From positions 1-43,013 of IMG/VR virus record IMGVR_UViG_3300046167_000702: a DNA stretch of 43,013 nucleotides; one strand, written 5' to 3'. Shown here piece by piece: positions 338-19,141 of this stretch (positions are counted from its first letter, which is position 1; each line of letters begins with the position of its first letter). A program made the position numbers and the translations under genes. Below the pieces are notes generated by a model, which was not told the origin of the DNA, searched no databases, and saw only the letters and a program-made list of their open reading frames with translations. The DNA comes from a virus.

Positions 338-586
338 TTAGCTGTGCATATTGGTGACAGCAGTGTTCCAATCAATACCTCTTTTAAATACTTCAACTGA
401 ATCAGTCAGAGTATAGGCATCTTCCTTGAGCTTGTTTGCTTTGATGAAAGCGACTGCTTCATTTTGTGCAGCCCAAGGAGTATGACTGTAGAATGGTGTA
501 CGTGTACCCTTATCCTTTCGAATAAGAACACACTTCCAAGTAGACTTGCTAGCCCACTTGCCAGATGTTTTGGCATTGGCTCCCAT
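338..586 (-). CDS. Hypothetical protein (82 aa)
   Basis: This small soluble protein is mildly basic in its N-terminal half (KTSGKWASKSTWKCVLIRKDKG), with no membrane segment and no motif I recognise. The start is well supported: its ATG overlaps the TAA of the upstream minus-strand gene by one base (TAATG at 584-588), a typical coupled junction. It is the last confident gene of the minus-strand accessory operon before the bidirectional terminator. The function is unknown. Confidence 0.7.
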   Translation of the reverse strand: MGANAKTSGKWASKSTWKCVLIRKDKGTRTPFYSHTPWAAQNEAVAFIKANKLKEDAYTLTDSVEVFKRGIDWNTAVTNMHS

Positions 587-846
587 TACTTGTCGTATTT
601 CTGTTCGTGCAATCGGTCAGCACGAGACATGAAATCTTCTGGTTCATTGCTGACAGAAAGATCATCGTCTTCATAAACTACACTAGCGGGCATGATCAAG
701 CCTTCAAGTTTATTTGCAATAACCTTTTTAAACTCAGAGATGAGGTCATCCTTGTCGCTGGCTTCGATGTCGTCAACTTGAGTAGTTACTGTAAAGAATA
801 TCTCACCACTATAGGTAGGATACTCTCGGTTATCATTTGGGTCCAT
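586..846 (-). CDS. Hypothetical acidic protein (86 aa)
   Basis: This is an acidic protein with many Asp and Glu residues, beginning MDPNDNREYPTYSGEIFFTV. A short beta-like N-terminal part is followed by a probable amphipathic helix around residues 35-50 (LISEFKKVIANKLEGLI). No conserved domain is recognised. Its stop overlaps the next gene's start by one base, and its own start lies 14 bp inside the end of the 44-residue gene upstream, so the three genes are probably translated together. The function is unknown. Confidence 0.7.
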   Translation of the reverse strand: MDPNDNREYPTYSGEIFFTVTTQVDDIEASDKDDLISEFKKVIANKLEGLIMPASVVYEDDDLSVSNEPEDFMSRADRLHEQKYDK

Positions 847-967
847 GATATTTAAATTGTTTTACTACACCGTCTTGACTTCTTTGATAAGCCAGGTCGA
901 TGCTAGGTGTGACATATTCTACACCCCAACGAGTGTAGATGTAAATGTAATCTGAATACTCATCCAT
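833..967 (-). CDS. Small hypothetical protein (44 aa)
   Basis: This short minus-strand gene starts at ATG 967 and ends at TGA 833-835, overlapping the start of the 86-residue gene by 14 bp. The peptide begins MDEYSDYIYIYTRWGVEYVT and continues with a Gln/Lys-containing tail. It has no membrane segment. Overlap with the next gene on the same strand and the compact spacing support a real gene. No family is recognised. Confidence 0.5.
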   Translation of the reverse strand: MDEYSDYIYIYTRWGVEYVTPSIDLAYQRSQDGVVKQFKYHGPK

Positions 968-981
968 AGGACTAAGATAAA

Positions 982-1004
982 GGGGCCAGCAATATGCCAG
1001 CCCC
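982..1004 (-). terminator. Probable minus-strand intrinsic terminator or attenuator
   Basis: A GC-rich hairpin (GGGGC at 982-986 pairing with GCCCC at 1000-1004, with two further inner pairs) lies 12 bp past the stop of the two-helix membrane protein gene. On the minus strand it is followed by only a short T run (TTTATC). Its sequence echoes the hairpin at 114-139. The weak T run suggests partial read-through into the downstream small genes. Confidence 0.45.
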
Positions 1005-1015
1005 GATATCACCCC

Positions 1016-1381
1016 TTATTCACGGTAAGCTTTACCTAGAATAGTTTGATAGTATTGTTTCTCCGCAGCAAGGCGGGTAGTACGACGACGATAGGTTAGT
1101 ATCGTAGAAGCGATGATACCTCCGTATAAGAAGAACTTAAGGAAGTACCATAGGAAGGTAAACTCAGACTCTAGGTCGAGTAGTACTGAGCAGAGTAGAG
1201 CGCCGATTAGCAAACCGTATGCTACGCGTTCCGCAATCTCTGTCTTGTACAGATAATCGCTCCGATGGATAACAAGCTTACGATGGTGTTCGGCTTGTTC
1301 AGGTGTCATCCCATTGACGGGATCGGGCAATGCATCCCAGTTGAGCTTATGCAATGGGATACTACGTGTGTCTTGACTCAT
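1016..1381 (-). CDS. Two-helix membrane protein (121 aa)
   Basis: The likely start is ATG at 1381, which overlaps the TGA of the upstream 26-residue gene (ATGA). The longer open frame to 1537 reads through two other small genes and has shadow-like composition. A polar N-terminal half of about 60 residues is followed by two hydrophobic helices separated by a short acidic turn (first near VAYGLLIGALLCSVLLDL, second near FLKFFLYGGIIASTILTY) and a basic C-terminal tail. An inner-membrane location is likely. No family is recognised. A holin-like or superinfection-exclusion role is possible from topology and context only. Confidence 0.65.
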   Translation of the reverse strand: MSQDTRSIPLHKLNWDALPDPVNGMTPEQAEHHRKLVIHRSDYLYKTEIAERVAYGLLIGALLCSVLLDLESEFTFLWYFLKFFLYGGIIASTILTYRRRTTRLAAEKQYYQTILGKAYRE

Positions 1382-1458
1382 GATGTAAAGGTTATGATGA
1401 TGGAAACTAAACCGATGATAGTGATTTGAATGAACAGTGCAGCTGCATAACGATTCAT
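1378..1458 (-). CDS. Single-transmembrane micropeptide (26 aa)
   Basis: A 26-codon frame sits exactly between two neighbours. Its ATG overlaps the TGA of the lipoprotein gene (ATGA at 1455-1458) and its TGA overlaps the ATG of the two-helix membrane gene (ATGA at 1378-1381). After MNRYAAA the peptide is one hydrophobic helix rich in Ile, Leu, Val and Phe, ending in FTS. The double coupling and clear transmembrane character are the evidence. No family is known to me. Confidence 0.5.
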   Translation of the reverse strand: MNRYAAALFIQITIIGLVSIIITFTS

Positions 1459-1613
1459 GGTGCAGGTGTTTGATAGGCAGCGCATGAGCCGTGGTTATGA
1501 TTACGATATGTGCTAGACGTGTAGGTGGCGGAAGCACAAGATGAAAGGAATGCTACTGCAAAGAGCAGAGCAATGGACAGCCAAAGAAGGCGGGATTGAG
1601 ATTTGTAACTCAT
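1455..1613 (-). CDS. Small lipoprotein (52 aa)
   Basis: A lipoprotein signal peptide is visible: a short basic N-region (MSYKSQSR), a hydrophobic core of about 12 residues, and a lipobox LSSC at residues 23-26 with the Cys as the predicted lipidated residue. The mature part is only about 27 residues, rich in Ser, Thr, Tyr, His and Asn, ending QTPAP. Small phage lipoproteins include outer spanins (Rz1-like) and lysis lipoproteins, but no inner spanin partner with a coiled coil is obvious next to it. It heads an ATGA-coupled membrane cassette. The role is inferred from topology only. Confidence 0.6.
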   Translation of the reverse strand: MSYKSQSRLLWLSIALLFAVAFLSSCASATYTSSTYRNHNHGSCAAYQTPAP

Positions 1614-2126
1614 GGTAAAAGGGATTAAATAAAGGGTTGAAAGGTCACAGTGCTGAGGGGTTGTTCATTAGGGTTACATAAAAGGGGTTTTGGTGGAATG
1701 CCATGCCTGCAAGGAAATGACATCCCACCTTGGGTTAACCCTCCCAAATGAAATTAGATATGGAGCATCCTATAGATGTTACTCTAGAAGATGCTCCGTT
1801 TGCACGCGATAACTATGAGGTGCGTCACGCCGGGAGCTTACCGGATAGTCATTACAATATTTAGAGAGGAGTGTATGAACTAAAGCCTCTATACTAAGGG
1901 GTGTAGCGGTACTAAACCGTCTGTGGACGCAGTTCCCAACTACACACCCTTCCCGCCACAGCAGGATTCGGATTCATCTCTACCATGTATAGGAGAGAGA
2001 GAAAGAAGTAACTAAGCTATCAACACACCTATGAGGAGCTACCCCATACTTCATTGAAGTGTGTCTTGCATGTGCACATACTGCCTTCTCTTTTTGTGGA
2101 AGGCATACTTAATTACTTCATTCATA
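1614..2126. other. Hairpin-rich region without a clear gene
   Basis: About 510 bp lie between two minus-strand genes with no convincing coding frame. I see several inverted repeats: 1692-1700 with 1721-1729 (one mismatch), the palindrome GGGTTAACCC at 1732-1741, GGAGCATC at 1762-1769 with GATGCTCC at 1790-1797, a long stem closing 1896-1951, the palindrome ACTTCATTGAAGT at 2048-2060, and TGCCTTC at 2082-2088 with GAAGGCA at 2099-2105. A 38-codon plus-strand frame at 1748-1864 could be a tiny gene but has no other support. The region may hold a noncoding RNA, a promoter/operator array or a replication-related site. Confidence 0.5.
1896..1951. ncRNA. Candidate structured RNA element
   Basis: An outer stem of about 11 bp with one bulged base (AAGGG-GTGTAG at 1896-1906 against CTACACACCCTT at 1940-1951) encloses two small overlapping hairpins, CGGT/ACCG and CGTC/GACG, which cannot both form fully. 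The alternating inner pairing resembles a small regulatory RNA or switch. The strand is undetermined. It does not fold as a standard tRNA because it lacks a proper T-arm and anticodon arm. The call rests on base pairing alone. Confidence 0.25.
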
Positions 2127-2492
2127 TTACTGTTGGTTAAGAGGTCGTCCAGTGTCATCTAACTGGTCAAGCTCTCGTCTTACAGAGATAGACAGCTTCC
2201 ATTTCTCTATAAGAGTATATACAAGTGCCTTCTGTGCAACGTAGTCATTCATGGTGTGCTTAAGAGCAGACAATACTTCTCCTGAGTCTAAACATGTAGC
2301 TATAGAGTTACACTCGTTCATCTCTTTGAGGATCTCTTCGAGTCTCGTGATGTCTGTGATAAGACGTTGACGTTTCTTCTCGCTTGATACGAGGTTAGCT
2401 GAGAAGTCTGCTTCACGCATGTATGACTCTCTGTCTTGCAACTGACACTGCTTGTCAGAAATAAGTTCTTTGGTGTAGTTAATTGTCCACAT
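2127..2492 (-). CDS. Hypothetical alpha-helical protein (121 aa)
   Basis: The preferred start is ATG at 2492 (MWTINYTKELISDKQ). A longer frame reaching 2705 would cross the terminator hairpin at 2637-2654 and the upstream gene's end, and its extra part looks non-coding. The protein is predicted almost entirely helical, with a central stretch rich in Arg, Lys, Glu and Leu (KKRQRLITDITRLEEILKEM) that could form a short coiled coil. No domain is recognised. It lies alone between a terminator and the hairpin-rich region, so it probably has its own promoter in 2493-2636. Confidence 0.6.
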   Translation of the reverse strand: MWTINYTKELISDKQCQLQDRESYMREADFSANLVSSEKKRQRLITDITRLEEILKEMNECNSIATCLDSGEVLSALKHTMNDYVAQKALVYTLIEKWKLSISVRRELDQLDDTGRPLNQQ

Positions 2493-2636
2493 AGTAAAAG
2501 GGTGTAAAGGGTGAAAAGGGATATAGTCTGTAGTACAGACATAGGATAGGTGTAGTATGTAACCCTCAAATGATGCGCATACAGCCTGGTGTGCGTAGAT
2601 GCGTCGTGTAGAACTGATGATAGTGTAATAAAAGGA

Positions 2637-2654
2637 GTATCCCCGTAGGGATAC
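2637..2654 (-). terminator. Intrinsic terminator, minus strand
   Basis: A perfect 7-bp stem (GTATCCC/GGGATAC) with a four-base loop lies 27 bp beyond the stop of the 128-residue minus-strand gene. On the minus strand it is followed by TCCTTTTATTAC. It should end the transcript that starts in the divergent region. Confidence 0.7.
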
Positions 2655-2680
2655 CCCCGACACAAGTGTGCCTTGTCGCT

Positions 2681-3067
2681 TTATTCGGCGACGATGGTGT
2701 GCCATTGACCTGTCACCGCACCCGTTTCGGGGTTGATGACTTCCTGTGGCACAAGAACGGGGAGACCGTCCTCGCCAATCACAGGGTTGTCGTTGGCATC
2801 ACGCTTGAACCTGAACAGTGGTTCAACACGTACACCTTCCAAGCGGATAGCAGACTTGGTATCGTCTGCCCATTCCAGCATGTTAGCGTATGTGCCATCC
2901 TCCTTTGCTTCAGCCCATAGGGACTTAGGCTTAGAACCGAGATACTGAAGTACCTCGATGTCCTTGAGACGGACGTTAAACATCTGTTGGCTCTTGGCAT
3001 CCTTTACCTTGCAGTAAAGCTTGCCCGTGGTCGACACGCGGGTCGGAATAAGAATCATCTTGTACAT
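2681..3067 (-). CDS. Hypothetical protein (128 aa)
   Basis: This is the first minus-strand gene out of the divergent intergenic region. The start is placed at ATG 3067; a GTG nine codons upstream and an ATG three codons downstream are alternatives. The product (MYKMILIPTRVSTTGKLYCK...) looks like a beta-rich soluble protein with a charged middle and a C-terminal part containing two turn-forming repeats (DANDNPVIGEDGLPVLVP, then INPETGAVTG). The base composition around it is more GC-rich than in the plus-strand late genes. Followed by its own terminator, it is a single-gene transcript. No family is recognised. Confidence 0.65.
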   Translation of the reverse strand: MYKMILIPTRVSTTGKLYCKVKDAKSQQMFNVRLKDIEVLQYLGSKPKSLWAEAKEDGTYANMLEWADDTKSAIRLEGVRVEPLFRFKRDANDNPVIGEDGLPVLVPQEVINPETGAVTGQWHTIVAE

Positions 3068-3199
3068 GATACTGTATTTGAGGGTTAACTGCACAACGGA
3101 CTATCCGCTGCACGACGCTGGGGGGTAGTTGATTAGGGAAACGAACCGGGGAGGTTGAACTAGGGTGGTACTCGAACGCATATTGCCGTAACTTTGAGC
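3068..3199. promoter_or_regulatory. Divergent promoter region
   Basis: About 130 bp separate the leftward gene starting at 3067 from the rightward operon starting at 3200, so it should carry promoters for both directions. A box TAACTTTG at 3189-3196 matches the Bacteroidota -7 consensus TAnnTTTG. It lies only four bases before the ATG, and no TTG sits at the expected -33 spacing, so it may be chance or drive a leaderless transcript. GGGTTAAC at 3082-3089 shares eight bases with the palindrome at 1732-1741. The assignment rests on gene orientation. Confidence 0.45.
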
Positions 3200-3388: not shown

Positions 3389-3667
3389 ATGGAAGGCAAG
3401 TACTATACAGATCCTAAGACACGTAAGGCTATTGATTCCTTACTACAGATGAATGCAGCTATTCAGGCTAACATTGGTACTAATAGCAAGTTGGATATTA
3501 AGAATCCGGCAGCCGCTGAGCAGTTATGGCATCAGTGGTTAGTTGAGATTAAAGTATTGGACCCTGGCTTCTATAACGACATCTCGACCACAGAAGAAAA
3601 GGAGATGGTGACCAAGAAAATCTATAGTAAGCAACGATTTCGTGAGCAGCAAGCTGAGTCTGTATAA
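3389..3667 (+). CDS. Hypothetical protein (92 aa)
   Basis: This helical, charged protein (MEGKYYTDPKTRKAIDSLLQ...) has a middle part rich in Ala, Glu and Trp (AAAEQLWHQWLVEIKVLDPG) and a basic Gln-rich C terminus. The upstream sequence AATTAATTTATT fits the A/T-rich leaders of this genome. No domain is recognised. Its position at the start of the late operon, ahead of the packaging genes, is the only hint of a role. Confidence 0.65.
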   Translation: MEGKYYTDPKTRKAIDSLLQMNAAIQANIGTNSKLDIKNPAAAEQLWHQWLVEIKVLDPGFYNDISTTEEKEMVTKKIYSKQRFREQQAESV

Positions 3668-3697: not shown

Positions 3698-4003
3698 ATG
3701 GAAATTGTCAAGCCCGGGATAGAGTATCGGCTACACAACTTCAAGTCAGAAACTGAGTATCAAACAGTACGCTTCACTGAGAAGACACCTGTTGGTTTCA
3801 ACCCAGGAACGACCAATGAGGAAGTGGTGTCAATGTTTATCGATCGTCTGTATGCGTTACAGGCAAAAAACTTCTCTGTAGAAAACCAATGTTGTATCAT
3901 CTTACTTAAGCAGGTAAGGGTGCTGTTAAAGAAGCGCTTGAACCGTAAGATTGATAGAGTAAATAAATACCAGGAGAATGCAACTGGAGATTCAAACAAG
4001 TAA
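3698..4003 (+). CDS. Candidate Acb2/Tad1-type hairpin-domain protein
   Basis: The 101-residue product has a short beta-like N terminus, a stretch VGFNPGTTNEEVV near residues 32-44, then two helices separated by a short link containing ENQCCI (around residues 63-68), ending in a basic Lys/Arg-rich helix. This order (NPG or GTTNEEV, then a helix with DRL, then EN followed by a helix ending KKR..R) matches my memory of the Acb2/Tad1 hairpin family. Those proteins oligomerise and bind cyclic di- or trinucleotides, blocking CBASS or Thoeris signalling. The family match is from memory and unverified. The 30-bp gap before it holds a TATATTTC motif. Confidence 0.5.
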   Translation: MEIVKPGIEYRLHNFKSETEYQTVRFTEKTPVGFNPGTTNEEVVSMFIDRLYALQAKNFSVENQCCIILLKQVRVLLKKRLNRKIDRVNKYQENATGDSNK

Positions 4004-4331
4004 GAAAAGTTTTATACGTCATTACTTAGAACTTTTAAATGGTATCTTGAAGCTGACTCCACGTGAGTTGGACTCATTGTTATTGTTCCTAGAATTTGAT
4101 GCGGAAGTAGCATGTAGTATGCAAGCACGAAAACATGTGGCAGAAGCCATGAGTTTTAAGAGTGTCAGCGTACTCAACAACTATGTAAAGAGTTTGAAAG
4201 ACAAGCAGGTCATCTACAAGGACGACCACGGAGTGTACAGGTACAATGACATTGTAAAACCCAATGGAAACCTTGACACACTTACCTTCAAATTCGTCGT
4301 CTCCCAACCCTCTATTCCGCCTGGAGTATGA
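3978..4331 (+). CDS. Winged-helix-like DNA-binding protein
   Basis: Residues 5-30 form a helix, followed by LTPRELDSLLLFLEF, which resembles the first helix of a helix-turn-helix domain. AEAMSFKSVSVLNNYVKSLK around residues 55-75 resembles a recognition helix, and VIYKDDHGVYRYN resembles the wing strands. The gene overlaps the upstream one by 26 bp. Small winged-helix proteins just before the terminase may serve as small terminase subunits or late regulators. Which of these applies cannot be decided here. Confidence 0.5.
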   Translation: MQLEIQTSKKSFIRHYLELLNGILKLTPRELDSLLLFLEFDAEVACSMQARKHVAEAMSFKSVSVLNNYVKSLKDKQVIYKDDHGVYRYNDIVKPNGNLDTLTFKFVVSQPSIPPGV

Positions 4332-4332
4332 G

Positions 4333-4476
4333 ATGGATTCGCTTGACGTATTGTTTGCGTTTGAGTTCTCTATGGCTGCAGAGCTTGAGGACCAAAGTGT
4401 GTCTTATAATACTGAAGTTTTTATTGGCTCTGACACCTACTCACTAACCTACCTGATATATGCCACGCCCGAGTAA
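4333..4476 (+). CDS. Small acidic hypothetical protein (47 aa)
   Basis: The start is placed at ATG 4333, one base after the stop of the upstream gene. The longer frame from 4264 would overlap that gene by 68 bp. The peptide MDSLDVLFAFEFSMAAELED is acidic and is followed by a beta-like tail rich in Tyr and Thr. Its end overlaps the next gene by 17 bp. No family is recognised. The tight packing on both sides supports it. Confidence 0.5.
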   Translation: MDSLDVLFAFEFSMAAELEDQSVSYNTEVFIGSDTYSLTYLIYATPE

Positions 4477-4693
4477 ACTGATGGATGAGATTATTCTTGA
4501 AATAATTCAAGAGGACGGAGGTACGTATGAGGAAGTGTCAGAGGTAGTAATGAGTCAGTTCTCGTTTTTGCGTAAGCACATGGAACACGGAGCGTTCAGC
4601 ACTGTGCGTCTTCCATACCTCGGTAAGTTTTACGTTAAACCAGGACGACTATCAAGATTAAACCATGCGGTTATTCAGGGAAGAAAGCTTTAA
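4460..4693 (+). CDS. Small conserved-looking protein (77 aa)
   Basis: After a short basic start (MPRPSKLMDE), the protein has two helices and then VRLPYLGKFYVKPGRLSRLN near residues 49-68. The pattern of helix, FxFLRKHM, VRLPYLGKF, VKPGRL looks like a conserved small protein that I associate with the region upstream of the terminase in Bacteroidota phages. It is loosely reminiscent of HU/IHF-like arms but lacks a clear match. It overlaps both neighbours (17 and 29 bp). A DNA-binding or packaging-accessory role is a guess. Confidence 0.6.
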   Translation: MPRPSKLMDEIILEIIQEDGGTYEEVSEVVMSQFSFLRKHMEHGAFSTVRLPYLGKFYVKPGRLSRLNHAVIQGRKL

Positions 4694-5228
4694 GGTTGTA
4701 GTGGATACGGAACTTAGGCTAATACCTGAGTTTAAAGCGTTGCTCAGTAGAGATCGCACCACAGATAAGAAGCAAGCTGTAAAAGAGTTTAGCTTCATTT
4801 ACTTCTTCCACGACCATAAGTCGCCATATTTTATCTACCCGGAAGACGAGCGGCGCTTACGAGTATCTAATGATACCGGTTTGGGTAAAGACTACAAGCC
4901 CGATGAAAAAGTTACTGCTGCTATTGCGAAGTACTTGGAGCTGTCTAAGACTCCGACTATCCAGTCTCTTACATCTATACGTGAGGGTTTGCTTACTAGT
5001 AGTAGGCTCATTGACACTCTGCGTGAGCGTATTGAGTCTGCTCTTGCTGACCCTGATTTGGAAGACATTGAGCCTGTTGTTAGGTCCGTTACCAGAATGC
5101 TTGAGATTTCTGAGAAGCTCCCAAAGGCGATTGAAAACATCACGTCTTTGGAAGAGAAGGTGAAGAAAGAAGAGTCTAACGATACTAGAATTAAAGGTGG
5201 GGGTAAAAAAGGAATGTTTGAAGACTAA
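4665..5228 (+). CDS. Hypothetical protein upstream of terminase (187 aa)
   Basis: The N-terminal part (residues 1-75) contains aromatic-rich FSFIYFFHDHKSPYFIYPED. The rest is helical, with a segment rich in Leu, Glu and Ser (residues 85-165) that may form a coiled coil, and the end is a Lys/Gly tail (IKGGGKKGMFED). Its stop overlaps the start of the large terminase gene by one base (TAATG). By position it is a candidate small terminase subunit, which usually combines an oligomerising helical core with DNA binding. No sequence signature confirms that. Confidence 0.6.
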   Translation: MRLFREESFKVVVDTELRLIPEFKALLSRDRTTDKKQAVKEFSFIYFFHDHKSPYFIYPEDERRLRVSNDTGLGKDYKPDEKVTAAIAKYLELSKTPTIQSLTSIREGLLTSSRLIDTLRERIESALADPDLEDIEPVVRSVTRMLEISEKLPKAIENITSLEEKVKKEESNDTRIKGGGKKGMFED

Positions 5229-7237
5229 TGTTAGTAAACACACGAGAGTTTAGCCGAAGCGGTAGGCATTTTTTAGAGCACGGTTTCTACTGCGGTGATC
5301 CTTCGGGTAGTGCAGCATACTTTGAGTATTGGGCAGAAGAGTTACGTCGTTGTAAGAACGGGCACACGGTAGGTGATACTACCATTACCGGACACCACTA
5401 CTTCTACTTGAACTACGTACAGATAAAGCTGACTGACAAGGGAAACAAAAAAATTGTGAGCTTCCCTAATTTCTGGGATGGCGATTACGAATACTTCTGG
5501 TTGCAAGACATAGCCCGTAACGGAATCAAACCAGAGGATTACAAAAAACTGAACCTGTCGACTTTCGTAGACCAGGCCCATATGGATGGGAGCCGTCATA
5601 TGATTGTAGGTAAGGCACGTCGTAAGGGATTCTCTTATAAGAATGCTGCACTTGTGACCAACACGTTCAACACAGAACGTAATAGCTATACCCTTCTTTG
5701 CGCGTTTGACAAGAAGTATCTATACCCTAAAGGTATCATGGCAATGGTTACCGACAACATGAACTTCATTAACGAGCACACCGGTTGGGCAAAACGTCGG
5801 CAGGTAGTAGACAAGCAAAACCACCGTCGTGCTAGTTACATGGAATACATGTCTGGGCAGCAGGTAGAGAAAGGCTACAAGTCTGAGGTTGAGGCGATTA
5901 CGTTTAAAGACAACCCGGATGCAGCTCGTGGTAAAGATGCAAGCATTGTCATCTTTGAGGAGTGCGGGGCCTTTGACAATCTCAAAGCATCTTACTTAGC
6001 TACTAAGCCTACCGTAGAGGACGGGGGCATTACTACGGGACAGATGATTCTGTTTGGTACGGGTGGTGATATGGCTGGAGGCACGATTGACTTCGAGTCT
6101 ATGTTCTATAACCCAGAGGCGTACAACCTTTTACCCATTTCTAACATCTGGGACGAAGGGGCAGACCATACCAACTGCGGTTACTTCTTCCCTTCGTTTA
6201 TCAATAAGATTGGGCACATGGATGCTAGCGGCAATAGCGATGTTGCTGGAGCTAAACAGTCTGAGGAGGCAAAGCGGGAGCAGATCAAACGAGACGCTAA
6301 AGATGCAGGTGTACTAGATAAGCATATTACCGAGTATCCATTTACACCAAAGGAGGCTTTCTTACAGCACTCTAGCAATATCTTTCCTACCGCTACTTTA
6401 ATGGACTGGCGCAACGAGCTTATGCGTAGCGGTATGTTCAAGTCTTTAGCTGTAGCAGGACATTTAGTGCAAACTAAAGATGGCGTTAAGCTTAAACCAG
6501 ACGATCGCTTACGACCTGTACTGAAATTTCCTACACAACGCGGCGACGATACAACAGGGTGCGTTGTTATGTACCAGTCGCCTTACCAAGAAAATGGAGA
6601 GGTACCTCAGGACTTATACATTATTGCGCATGACCCGTATGCGCAAGACGGTAGAGGACAATCTTTAGGTGCTGCTTATGTGCTAAAGCGTGTTAATCCG
6701 TTTAGCCAACCCGACGATATGATCGTTGCTAGTTATATAGGAAGACCTGATACGCAGGATGAATACAACAATACCCTATTTTTGCTGTCAAAGTATTACA
6801 ACGCTCGTATAGGATTTGAGAATGACCGAGGAGAAATTATTCCTTTCGCCAAACGTCATAAGTTAATGCAGCAGCTTTTACCAGAGGTAGAAATCTTTGA
6901 TAAAACAGATAACGTTCGTATACGCAAGCTAGGCCGTAGTTACGGCATGAGCATGGGTAGTAAGGAACGTAAAGGGCAGGCAGAAATATACTTAAGGGAC
7001 TGGCTGAAAACTCCTAGAGGGCGAAGCGAGTCAGGAGAAATCAAGCTGAATCTACATCAAATATACGATATTGCACTAATAGATGAGCTTGTAAAATATA
7101 ATCGCCGGGGCAACTTTGACCGGGTGTCAGCACTAATGGTAGGCATGTTCCACTTAAAGGATTTGCATTCTAGAGAAGTCAAGGTAATAGAGCAGACATC
7201 TAATAACACATTCTTCGACCGAGCCTTCTTCTCATAA
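5228..7237 (+). CDS. terL: Terminase large subunit
   Basis: This 669-residue protein has both halves of a phage packaging motor. The ATPase half has a Walker A-like loop IVGKARRKGFSYK at about residues 126-138 and a Walker B segment SIVIFEECG at 239-247, including the catalytic Glu. The C-terminal nuclease half has acidic metal-binding candidates in YIIAHDPYAQD (464-474) and IGFENDRGE (528-536). The enzyme would pump DNA into the procapsid and cut it at headful or specific sites. Length and motif order are usual for TerL. It is followed 11 bp later by the portal gene, the classical order. Confidence 0.93.
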   Translation: MLVNTREFSRSGRHFLEHGFYCGDPSGSAAYFEYWAEELRRCKNGHTVGDTTITGHHYFYLNYVQIKLTDKGNKKIVSFPNFWDGDYEYFWLQDIARNGIKPEDYKKLNLSTFVDQAHMDGSRHMIVGKARRKGFSYKNAALVTNTFNTERNSYTLLCAFDKKYLYPKGIMAMVTDNMNFINEHTGWAKRRQVVDKQNHRRASYMEYMSGQQVEKGYKSEVEAITFKDNPDAARGKDASIVIFEECGAFDNLKASYLATKPTVEDGGITTGQMILFGTGGDMAGGTIDFESMFYNPEAYNLLPISNIWDEGADHTNCGYFFPSFINKIGHMDASGNSDVAGAKQSEEAKREQIKRDAKDAGVLDKHITEYPFTPKEAFLQHSSNIFPTATLMDWRNELMRSGMFKSLAVAGHLVQTKDGVKLKPDDRLRPVLKFPTQRGDDTTGCVVMYQSPYQENGEVPQDLYIIAHDPYAQDGRGQSLGAAYVLKRVNPFSQPDDMIVASYIGRPDTQDEYNNTLFLLSKYYNARIGFENDRGEIIPFAKRHKLMQQLLPEVEIFDKTDNVRIRKLGRSYGMSMGSKERKGQAEIYLRDWLKTPRGRSESGEIKLNLHQIYDIALIDELVKYNRRGNFDRVSALMVGMFHLKDLHSREVKVIEQTSNNTFFDRAFFS

Positions 7238-17913: not shown

Positions 17914-18648
17914 ATGGATATTCTTGCATTAGTTAAACAGTATTGCAAGAATCACCGAAATGAGACACACGCACGTATCGCTTCGCTGATTCTTGAAGAG
18001 AATCCGAAAGTTGAATACAGTCATAGGCACATTCGCCGTTTGGTTTCAGAGGAACGAAAGCCAAAAGCTTCGGTATCTCAAGATATTACCCCAGAACAAG
18101 CTTGTTACACTTATAAGGGGGAGGAGCCTATCCATTCCTTAGAAGAGGCTTTGAAATACTTTCAAGTAGATCTTTCTAAATGGGAGGTTTCTCGCTATAC
18201 CTGCAATAGCTGGGAAGCTCAGACCAAGCAAGGCCCGGTTACTATGCATCAGGTAAAGATGCATTTAGATAAGAAGAAAGAGGAGATTGATTTAACAGAA
18301 GTCATTGACGACTTACGTGAAACCCTTGATGGATTTCAAATCAATCGAGGACCGGGGAGCAACACTGCTGTTTTAGCCCTCTCAGACTTCCATATAGGCG
18401 CTAAAGTGGAGGCTATGGGCAATACCCCTGTATTTGATGTAAAGACGGTCATAAGCCGCTTACAAGAAGTCGCTACTCAAGTAAACCAAAAACAGTATGA
18501 AGACGTTTATGTCTGTTTGCTAGGAGACTTCATTGAATCATTTACTGGGTTGAATCATCAATCGACCTGGCACGAGTTAGAGGAGAAAGGGCCACGGCAC
18601 CAACGTAATTATTCTAGCCTACAACATTATCCGCAGATTCCTAACTAG
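17914..18648 (+). CDS. Calcineurin-like metallophosphoesterase, N-terminal part (frame break)
   Basis: The N-terminal 50 residues include a helix-turn-helix-like segment (THARIASLILEENPKVEYSH). The phosphoesterase domain starts near residue 152: LALSDFHIGA (D-x-H, 155-162) and LLGDFIES (GDxxE, 202-209) are the first two metal-binding motifs. Just after WHELEEKG the frame goes wrong, while the +1 frame continues HGTNVIILAY. An intact gene would end at 19141 with about 409 residues. The break lies in AAAGGGCCAC at 18586-18595. Phages use such enzymes as nucleases or nucleotidases. Confidence 0.75.
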   Translation: MDILALVKQYCKNHRNETHARIASLILEENPKVEYSHRHIRRLVSEERKPKASVSQDITPEQACYTYKGEEPIHSLEEALKYFQVDLSKWEVSRYTCNSWEAQTKQGPVTMHQVKMHLDKKKEEIDLTEVIDDLRETLDGFQINRGPGSNTAVLALSDFHIGAKVEAMGNTPVFDVKTVISRLQEVATQVNQKQYEDVYVCLLGDFIESFTGLNHQSTWHELEEKGPRHQRNYSSLQHYPQIPN

Positions 18649-19141
18649 CCTTGATAATGTAGCAGGGGTCTATATTGTTAGTGGTAACCATGATAGGGTT
18701 ACAATGAAGATGGAAGGAGACCCTTATGGTTCAGTAGCAGGACTGCTTGCTTTTATGCTGCAGGAAAACACCCCGTTGGATATAAGGCACAATGCCGTAC
18801 TTTTGGGAGTAGAGATAGATAGTATCTATTACATCCTTACACACAACCATCTGGGTGTTTCTAAGGGTGATTTAGGGAAGGCTTTTTGGGAGCATGGGCA
18901 GCAAGGCGTATACAACGTTATGCTAGGCGGTCACTGGCACTCACGGAAAGGAAAGCGGGTCTATACCACTATAGACGAGAAACAAGTTGATCAAGCAAAC
19001 TACCGGCAGCTAGCAGTTGCTCCTTTGTTTACGGGTAATTTTTACTCAGAAAGCAACGGGTGGAATAGCTCTGCGGGTTATACTGTAATTGTAAATAACG
19101 GACAGGGGAAACCCAATGTCTTTGAATATGTACTATCGTAA
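18593..19141 (+). CDS. Calcineurin-like metallophosphoesterase, C-terminal part
   Basis: Continuing the preceding gene in the +1 frame, this part carries the remaining motifs in correct order: IVSGNHDRVT (GNHD), YILTHNHLG (metal-binding His) and MLGGHWHSRK (GHxH). The two pieces thus have a complete set of metal ligands. Translation as drawn starts at His after the shift; an ATG exists at 18704 but would drop GNHD. The stop overlaps the next gene's start (TAATG), indicating the downstream gene is coupled to it. Confidence 0.72.
   Translation, partial: HGTNVIILAYNIIRRFLTSLDNVAGVYIVSGNHDRVTMKMEGDPYGSVAGLLAFMLQENTPLDIRHNAVLLGVEIDSIYYILTHNHLGVSKGDLGKAFWEHGQQGVYNVMLGGHWHSRKGKRVYTTIDEKQVDQANYRQLAVAPLFTGNFYSESNGWNSSAGYTVIVNNGQGKPNVFEYVLS

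Follow-up and report, generated by a model that had tools for sequence, protein, structure and literature searches.

Tad1 (Thoeris anti-defence 1), which phages produce to sequester the alarm molecules of bacteria, consists of an N-terminal antiparallel β-sheet followed by two long C-terminal helices, and its C-terminal tail (GVEGT type) helps to form the pocket for gcADPR and CDN ligands (PMC12043709). Acb2 (anti-CBASS 2) shares the two-helix hairpin, for which a joint Pfam domain exists (PF24729, Acb2_Tad1_hairpin), but it lacks the β-sheet and begins with a short N-terminal helix (PMC12043709). Acb4 was rejected as a candidate for the protein described here because it is not structurally homologous to Tad1 (PMC11722364). 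A Tad1-type domain also forms the C-terminal part of phiKZ gp184, a 230-residue protein that is annotated as structural, is a named chain of PDB entry 8y6v, and has been validated as an injected protein (PMC10449902).

In the 43,013-nucleotide stretch of viral DNA analysed here (the window), the plus-strand open reading frame at positions 3698-4003 translates to the 101-residue protein MEIVKPGIEYRLHNFKSETEYQTVRFTEKTPVGFNPGTTNEEVVSMFIDRLYALQAKNFSVENQCCIILLKQVRVLLKKRLNRKIDRVNKYQENATGDSNK. A first-pass annotation had described this product as a candidate Acb2/Tad1-like sponge for cyclic nucleotides, and the motifs that it quoted, NPG/TTNEEVV, DRL, EN, and a basic helix with KKR..R, are all present in the frame. 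The frame is a real gene under strong purifying selection. Relatives of the protein occur in 46 viral-contig loci at 69-100% identity, and the representatives of these that were read begin at the same methionine; deeper searches bring in members down to about 52% identity. Where synonymous sites are unsaturated, dN/dS is 0.03-0.12, and the gene is more conserved than its small neighbors and close to the level of the large terminase subunit (TerL). Species-genome contigs that contain relatives are mostly from Bacteroidota.

Translation, relatives, profile searches, intermediate sequences, and structure prediction together identify the product as a divergent Tad1-family protein. Searched singly against Pfam, PHROG, PDB, and INPHARED, the protein gave weak matches or none: there was no match in Pfam, PHROG 2428 was found at 1.7e-4, and a phmmer search of PDB returned Tad1 at 0.15. 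The search with a hairpin profile that the first-pass annotation had proposed gave a divided answer. PF24729 was not found above its curated cut-off in the window protein, in 25 relatives, or in the whole record, whereas PHROG 2428 was matched by 25 of 25 aligned relatives (best 5.5e-6); in the window this match passes through an upstream TAA, and its N-terminal part was not counted. As controls, known Tad1 fragments passed PF24729 and matched PHROG 2428 at 5e-25 and 1.5e-30, while four of six related proteins passed PF24729 and two fell under the cut-off. Profiles built from the family were more sensitive: one from 25 sequences ranked Tad1 first in PDB (0.0058), and a combined 42-sequence profile found Tad1 at 8.3e-15 and phiKZ gp184 at 1.7e-4. 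Eleven Tad1 homologues encoded by cultured phages were compared with the window family by hhalign, which gave 95.7% (P 9e-9); column shuffling, repeated 100 times, reached no more than 13.4%, and reversing the alignment gave 0.2%.

Phage proteins with a GTTNEEVL loop bridge the remaining distance to Tad1. These intermediates, retrieved with a query that was modelled on the common Tad1 consensus, follow the pattern MKV..GHKYEL..FE..QTLQFIEK...GTTNEEVLEVLIDRL..LQ.KFPCREN..ITKLEEALMWL.KRT.DR..R.VEGT, which aligns with nearly the whole length of the window protein. They share its length and its start (MKV..GH.YEL..F....QT.QF.EK). The window-family profile matches them at values as low as 2e-14, and blastp of the window protein in a small database gave 34-38% identity over residues 1-80/87. 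PHROG 2428 was matched at 1e-20 or better by all six intermediate-related proteins tested, and the one intermediate run against PDB (L241) found solved Tad1 at 1.4e-11. Therefore, although PF24729 misses the window family, the PHROG 2428 matches, the profile-profile alignment, and the full-length intermediates establish that the window protein is homologous to Tad1 over nearly its full length.

Structure prediction agrees with this assignment. The AlphaFold2 monomer model from a 42-sequence alignment (pLDDT 89.5) has five short strands in residues 2-35 and helices at residues 40-57 and 61-97; it supersedes an earlier shallow model (pLDDT 67) for which Tad1 was already the top fold match. Foldseek gave 136 PDB matches, and Tad1 chains fill the first 11 places (E 3.4e-4 to 2.5e-2, probability 1.00, TM 0.54-0.67); the next match is at 0.75, and no Acb2 structure is among the matches listed. 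Matches in BFVD include entries titled Acb2/Tad1 hairpin and 'ABC transporter ATPase', the latter also being the name of the CbTad1 chain in PDB. The predicted monomer is thus a β-sheet with a long two-helix hairpin, as in solved Tad1 (CbTad1 and CmTad1; PDB 7uav, 8smd, 8kbb-8kbh). The hairpin anticipated in the first-pass annotation is present in the model, and the Tad1 half of its assignment stands on PHROG 2428, hhalign, the intermediates, and the fold. The Acb2 half does not, because the model has strands where Acb2 has a short helix before the hairpin, and we rejected an Acb2 identity on this architecture.

The window protein shares with Tad1 the GTTNEE-type loop, the EN motif, and an arginine at the R109 position, but it is shorter (101 residues compared with about 125-138) and has a different signal-binding end. 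A midpoint-rooted tree built from 87 sequences resolves the window family as a single clade (support 1.0), set apart by a very long branch. All 19 window-family sequences keep Y10, F26, K29, G37-T-T-N-E-E42, R50, E62, N63, and R80; alignment and column counts place the GTTNEEV loop at residues 37-43 (3806-3826, plus strand), and GTTNEE is common to full-length Tad1-type proteins. Changes in the following loop and helix 2 (residues 60-93; 3875-3976, plus strand) are apparent from column counts and charge. The intermediates, which match PHROG 2428 and mostly pass PF24729 where checked, retain CREN, LEEALMW, DR, VEGT(H), and a near-neutral helix 2, and the window family does not. In the window family the arginine before EN has become V, A, or S, LEE has become L-K-N/Q/other, the helix-2 tryptophan is replaced by L, Q, or I, and the D83 position by R or K; the L74 position is R and the R84 position is K in 19 of 19 sequences. 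K71, R74, K84, and V88 are newly invariant. The VEGT tail is absent from all aligned members, in which the helix continues instead (KYQE). The mean net charge of helix 2 is +6.7 in the window family and +1.3 in the Tad1 intermediates, with pI values of 9.2 and 6.3, respectively.

These differences include positions that correspond to the ligand pocket of CbTad1, which we take to be lined by F82, N92, R109, and R113. In the PDB chain, residues 82, 92, 109, and 113 are F, N, R, and R with a one-residue offset, and they align with L54, N63, R80, and K84 of the window protein. The equivalents of N92 and R109 are kept in all 19 window-family sequences, while the R113 position is lysine in all 19; position 54 is mostly leucine in the intermediates too. 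Because the C-terminal tail is gone and helix 2 is strongly basic, the gcADPR/CDN site is probably altered in the window family, as judged from sequence. The suggestion in the first-pass annotation that the ligand range may be new thus gains real support from the fixed helix-2 changes and the lost tail, and those changes offer a concrete lead toward a new ligand.

By its TerL, the phage groups with crAss-like and FpV4-like podophages of Bacteroidota. Minus-strand genes at about 338-3094 are followed by an intergenic region (about 3095-3193), after which a plus-strand block begins; a search across the window for the Bacteroidota-type promoter pattern gave no match. The block opens with two small frames, including a fast-evolving gene of 92 residues with no assigned function (3389-3667), followed by the Tad1-like gene. 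It continues with a winged-helix-like gene (3978-4331), identified from weak PHROG matches and sequence reading, that overlaps the Tad1-like gene by 26 bp. An HU/IHF-like DNA-binding protein of 77 residues is encoded at 4460-4693 (PHROG 16533 at 9e-7; PF00216 at E 0.0058, under the curated cut-off), a conserved 187-residue protein with orthologues in crAss-like phages at 4665-5228, and a crAss-like TerL at 5228-7237 (PHROG 6681 at 1e-140; tblastn matches to FpV4 and crAss-like phages), all on the plus strand, and the genes for the portal and major head protein come next. As gene order, the earlier description of the gene as heading an operon beside packaging genes is accurate.

The arrangement is constant in related contigs. 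The Tad1-like gene lies upstream of TerL on the same strand in 60 of 80 TerL loci, not all of them independent; in the other 20 the contig begins near TerL and appears too short. Each of the 26 loci examined has the genes in one order: Tad1-like, winged-helix-like, HU-like, 187-residue gene, and TerL. The upstream region of TerL held no Tad1-like relative in ten reference genomes, comprising eight Crassvirales (crAss001, p-crAssphage, phi14:2, cr115_1, cr125_1, cr1_1, cr272_1, and ProJPt-Bp1), FpV4, and phi38:1. Two weak matches, obtained when the whole records of cr115_1 and cr125_1 were searched, pass through stop codons and were discarded. FpV4 has orthologues of the winged-helix, HU-like (1.3e-13), and 187-residue (8.6e-15) genes, and crAss001 has the 187-residue gene (1.6e-24; 3e-19 in cr1_1) with weak matches to the winged-helix-like and HU-like genes. 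Because FpV4 and crAss001 have these neighbors but not the Tad1-like gene, the gene is specific to the window clade, the only one to carry it among the crAss-like phage genomes checked. It is fixed there at the head of the TerL, portal, and capsid block. Cellulophaga phage phi17:2 encodes an ordinary Tad1 (PHROG 2428 at 1.1e-33), annotated only as a hypothetical protein, at 2842-3186 of L140 (phi17:2_18), three genes upstream of TerL. There the gene lies between the HU-like gene and TerL, unlike in the window clade, and this different slot hints at a separate acquisition.

On balance we favor, as fairly likely, the reading that the gene encodes a divergent Tad1-family sponge for nucleotide signals in a marine crAss-like phage, with ligand binding predicted. 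The hairpins would assemble the protein into a hexamer, as in Tad1, and the hexamer would bind, without cleaving it, a cyclic signal of host defense (gcADPR or cyclic di- or trinucleotides), so that the sequestered signal leaves the defense effector off. With an altered pocket, the likeliest change would be toward another cyclic nucleotide or one that carries more charge. Placement where the structural operon begins may allow co-production with capsid proteins or loading into the virion. Some Thoeris systems sense capsid proteins (PMC12578639), and the position beside capsid genes fits both such sensing and packaging like that of phiKZ gp184. Against the sponge reading, arms-race genes are less typically fixed in a whole clade and slow to evolve, PF24729 goes unmatched, and the VEGT tail, the arginine before EN, and the helix-2 tryptophan are missing. 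If it is correct, the capsid operon of an abundant set of Bacteroidota phages opens with a counter-defense gene, beside products that some Thoeris systems sense. As the subfamily lies outside present Pfam detection, annotation would miss sponges of this type. We propose more tentatively that the family is a distinct, clade-fixed Tad1 subfamily whose rebuilt site sequesters a signal that known Tad1 and Acb2 proteins do not bind, possibly from within the virion.

The strongest competing explanation, which we regard as somewhat unlikely, is that the Tad1 fold has been repurposed for a capsid- or packaging-associated or nucleic-acid-binding accessory that works with the winged-helix and HU-like proteins and sequesters no signal. 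The strongly basic helix 2 would suit such a role, as would the loss of the tail, the arginine before EN, and the tryptophan while K71, R74, K84, and V88 became invariant. The strict association of the gene with TerL and the winged-helix gene, its conservation above that of the small neighbors and near that of TerL, and fixation throughout the clade point the same way, and Tad1 homologues in Lactococcus phage 1706 (orf71), Bacillus phage P59, and phiKZ (184) carry structural-protein annotations. However, the sheet, the GTTNEE loop, and the equivalents of CbTad1 N92 and R109 are retained, the related crAss-like, FpV4, and phi38:1 phages do without the gene, which is thus dispensable for that packaging machinery, and the ordinary Tad1 at another slot in phi17:2 suggests an accessory gene.

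It is unlikely, though compatible with the sponge reading as a variant of its delivery, that the protein is a late product that enters the capsid and is injected along with the DNA, neutralizing signals as the next infection begins. This idea draws on the presumed late-operon position and on phiKZ gp184, which matches PHROG 2428 at 1.6e-19 and solved Tad1 at 2e-6, but the long N-terminal extension of gp184 is missing from the 101-residue protein. That the protein is no Tad1 relative at all but a small protein, MazF/PemK-like or generically helical, whose motifs are alike by chance, is highly improbable, and we rejected a MazF/PemK identity because its lead shrank with deeper profiles: the first-pass matches were weak and a shallow profile ranks MazF above Tad1, but MazF scores drop with a deeper alignment and are gone with the full profile, MazF matches are confined to ~35 residues of helix, in contrast to a full-length Tad1 match with which the fold searches agree, and the PemK_toxin Pfam model gave 13.3 bits in the window protein against a cut-off of 23.1. 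With significant Tad1 profile matches and a predicted hairpin, neither of the findings that would have spoken against the original annotation was made, and the divergent Tad1-family sponge remains our preferred reading.

Several observations concern neighboring genes. The winged-helix-like gene (3978-4331, plus strand) adjoins the Tad1-like gene in every one of the 26 loci examined, and its product is a possible functional partner of the Tad1-like protein. In phages OBP, SXP01, Thanatos-2, and AhC3_1, whose hosts differ, a Tad1-type gene adjoins an RNA ligase (or 'ligase') gene, and this adjacency in four phages suggests a recurrent counter-defense pair of Tad1 and RNA repair. Elsewhere in the window, a phosphoesterase/exonuclease-like gene (PHROG 284) appears as two consecutive plus-strand frames (17914-18648 and 18704-19141) that resemble pieces of one protein, possibly separated by a frameshift, whether programmed or a sequencing error.
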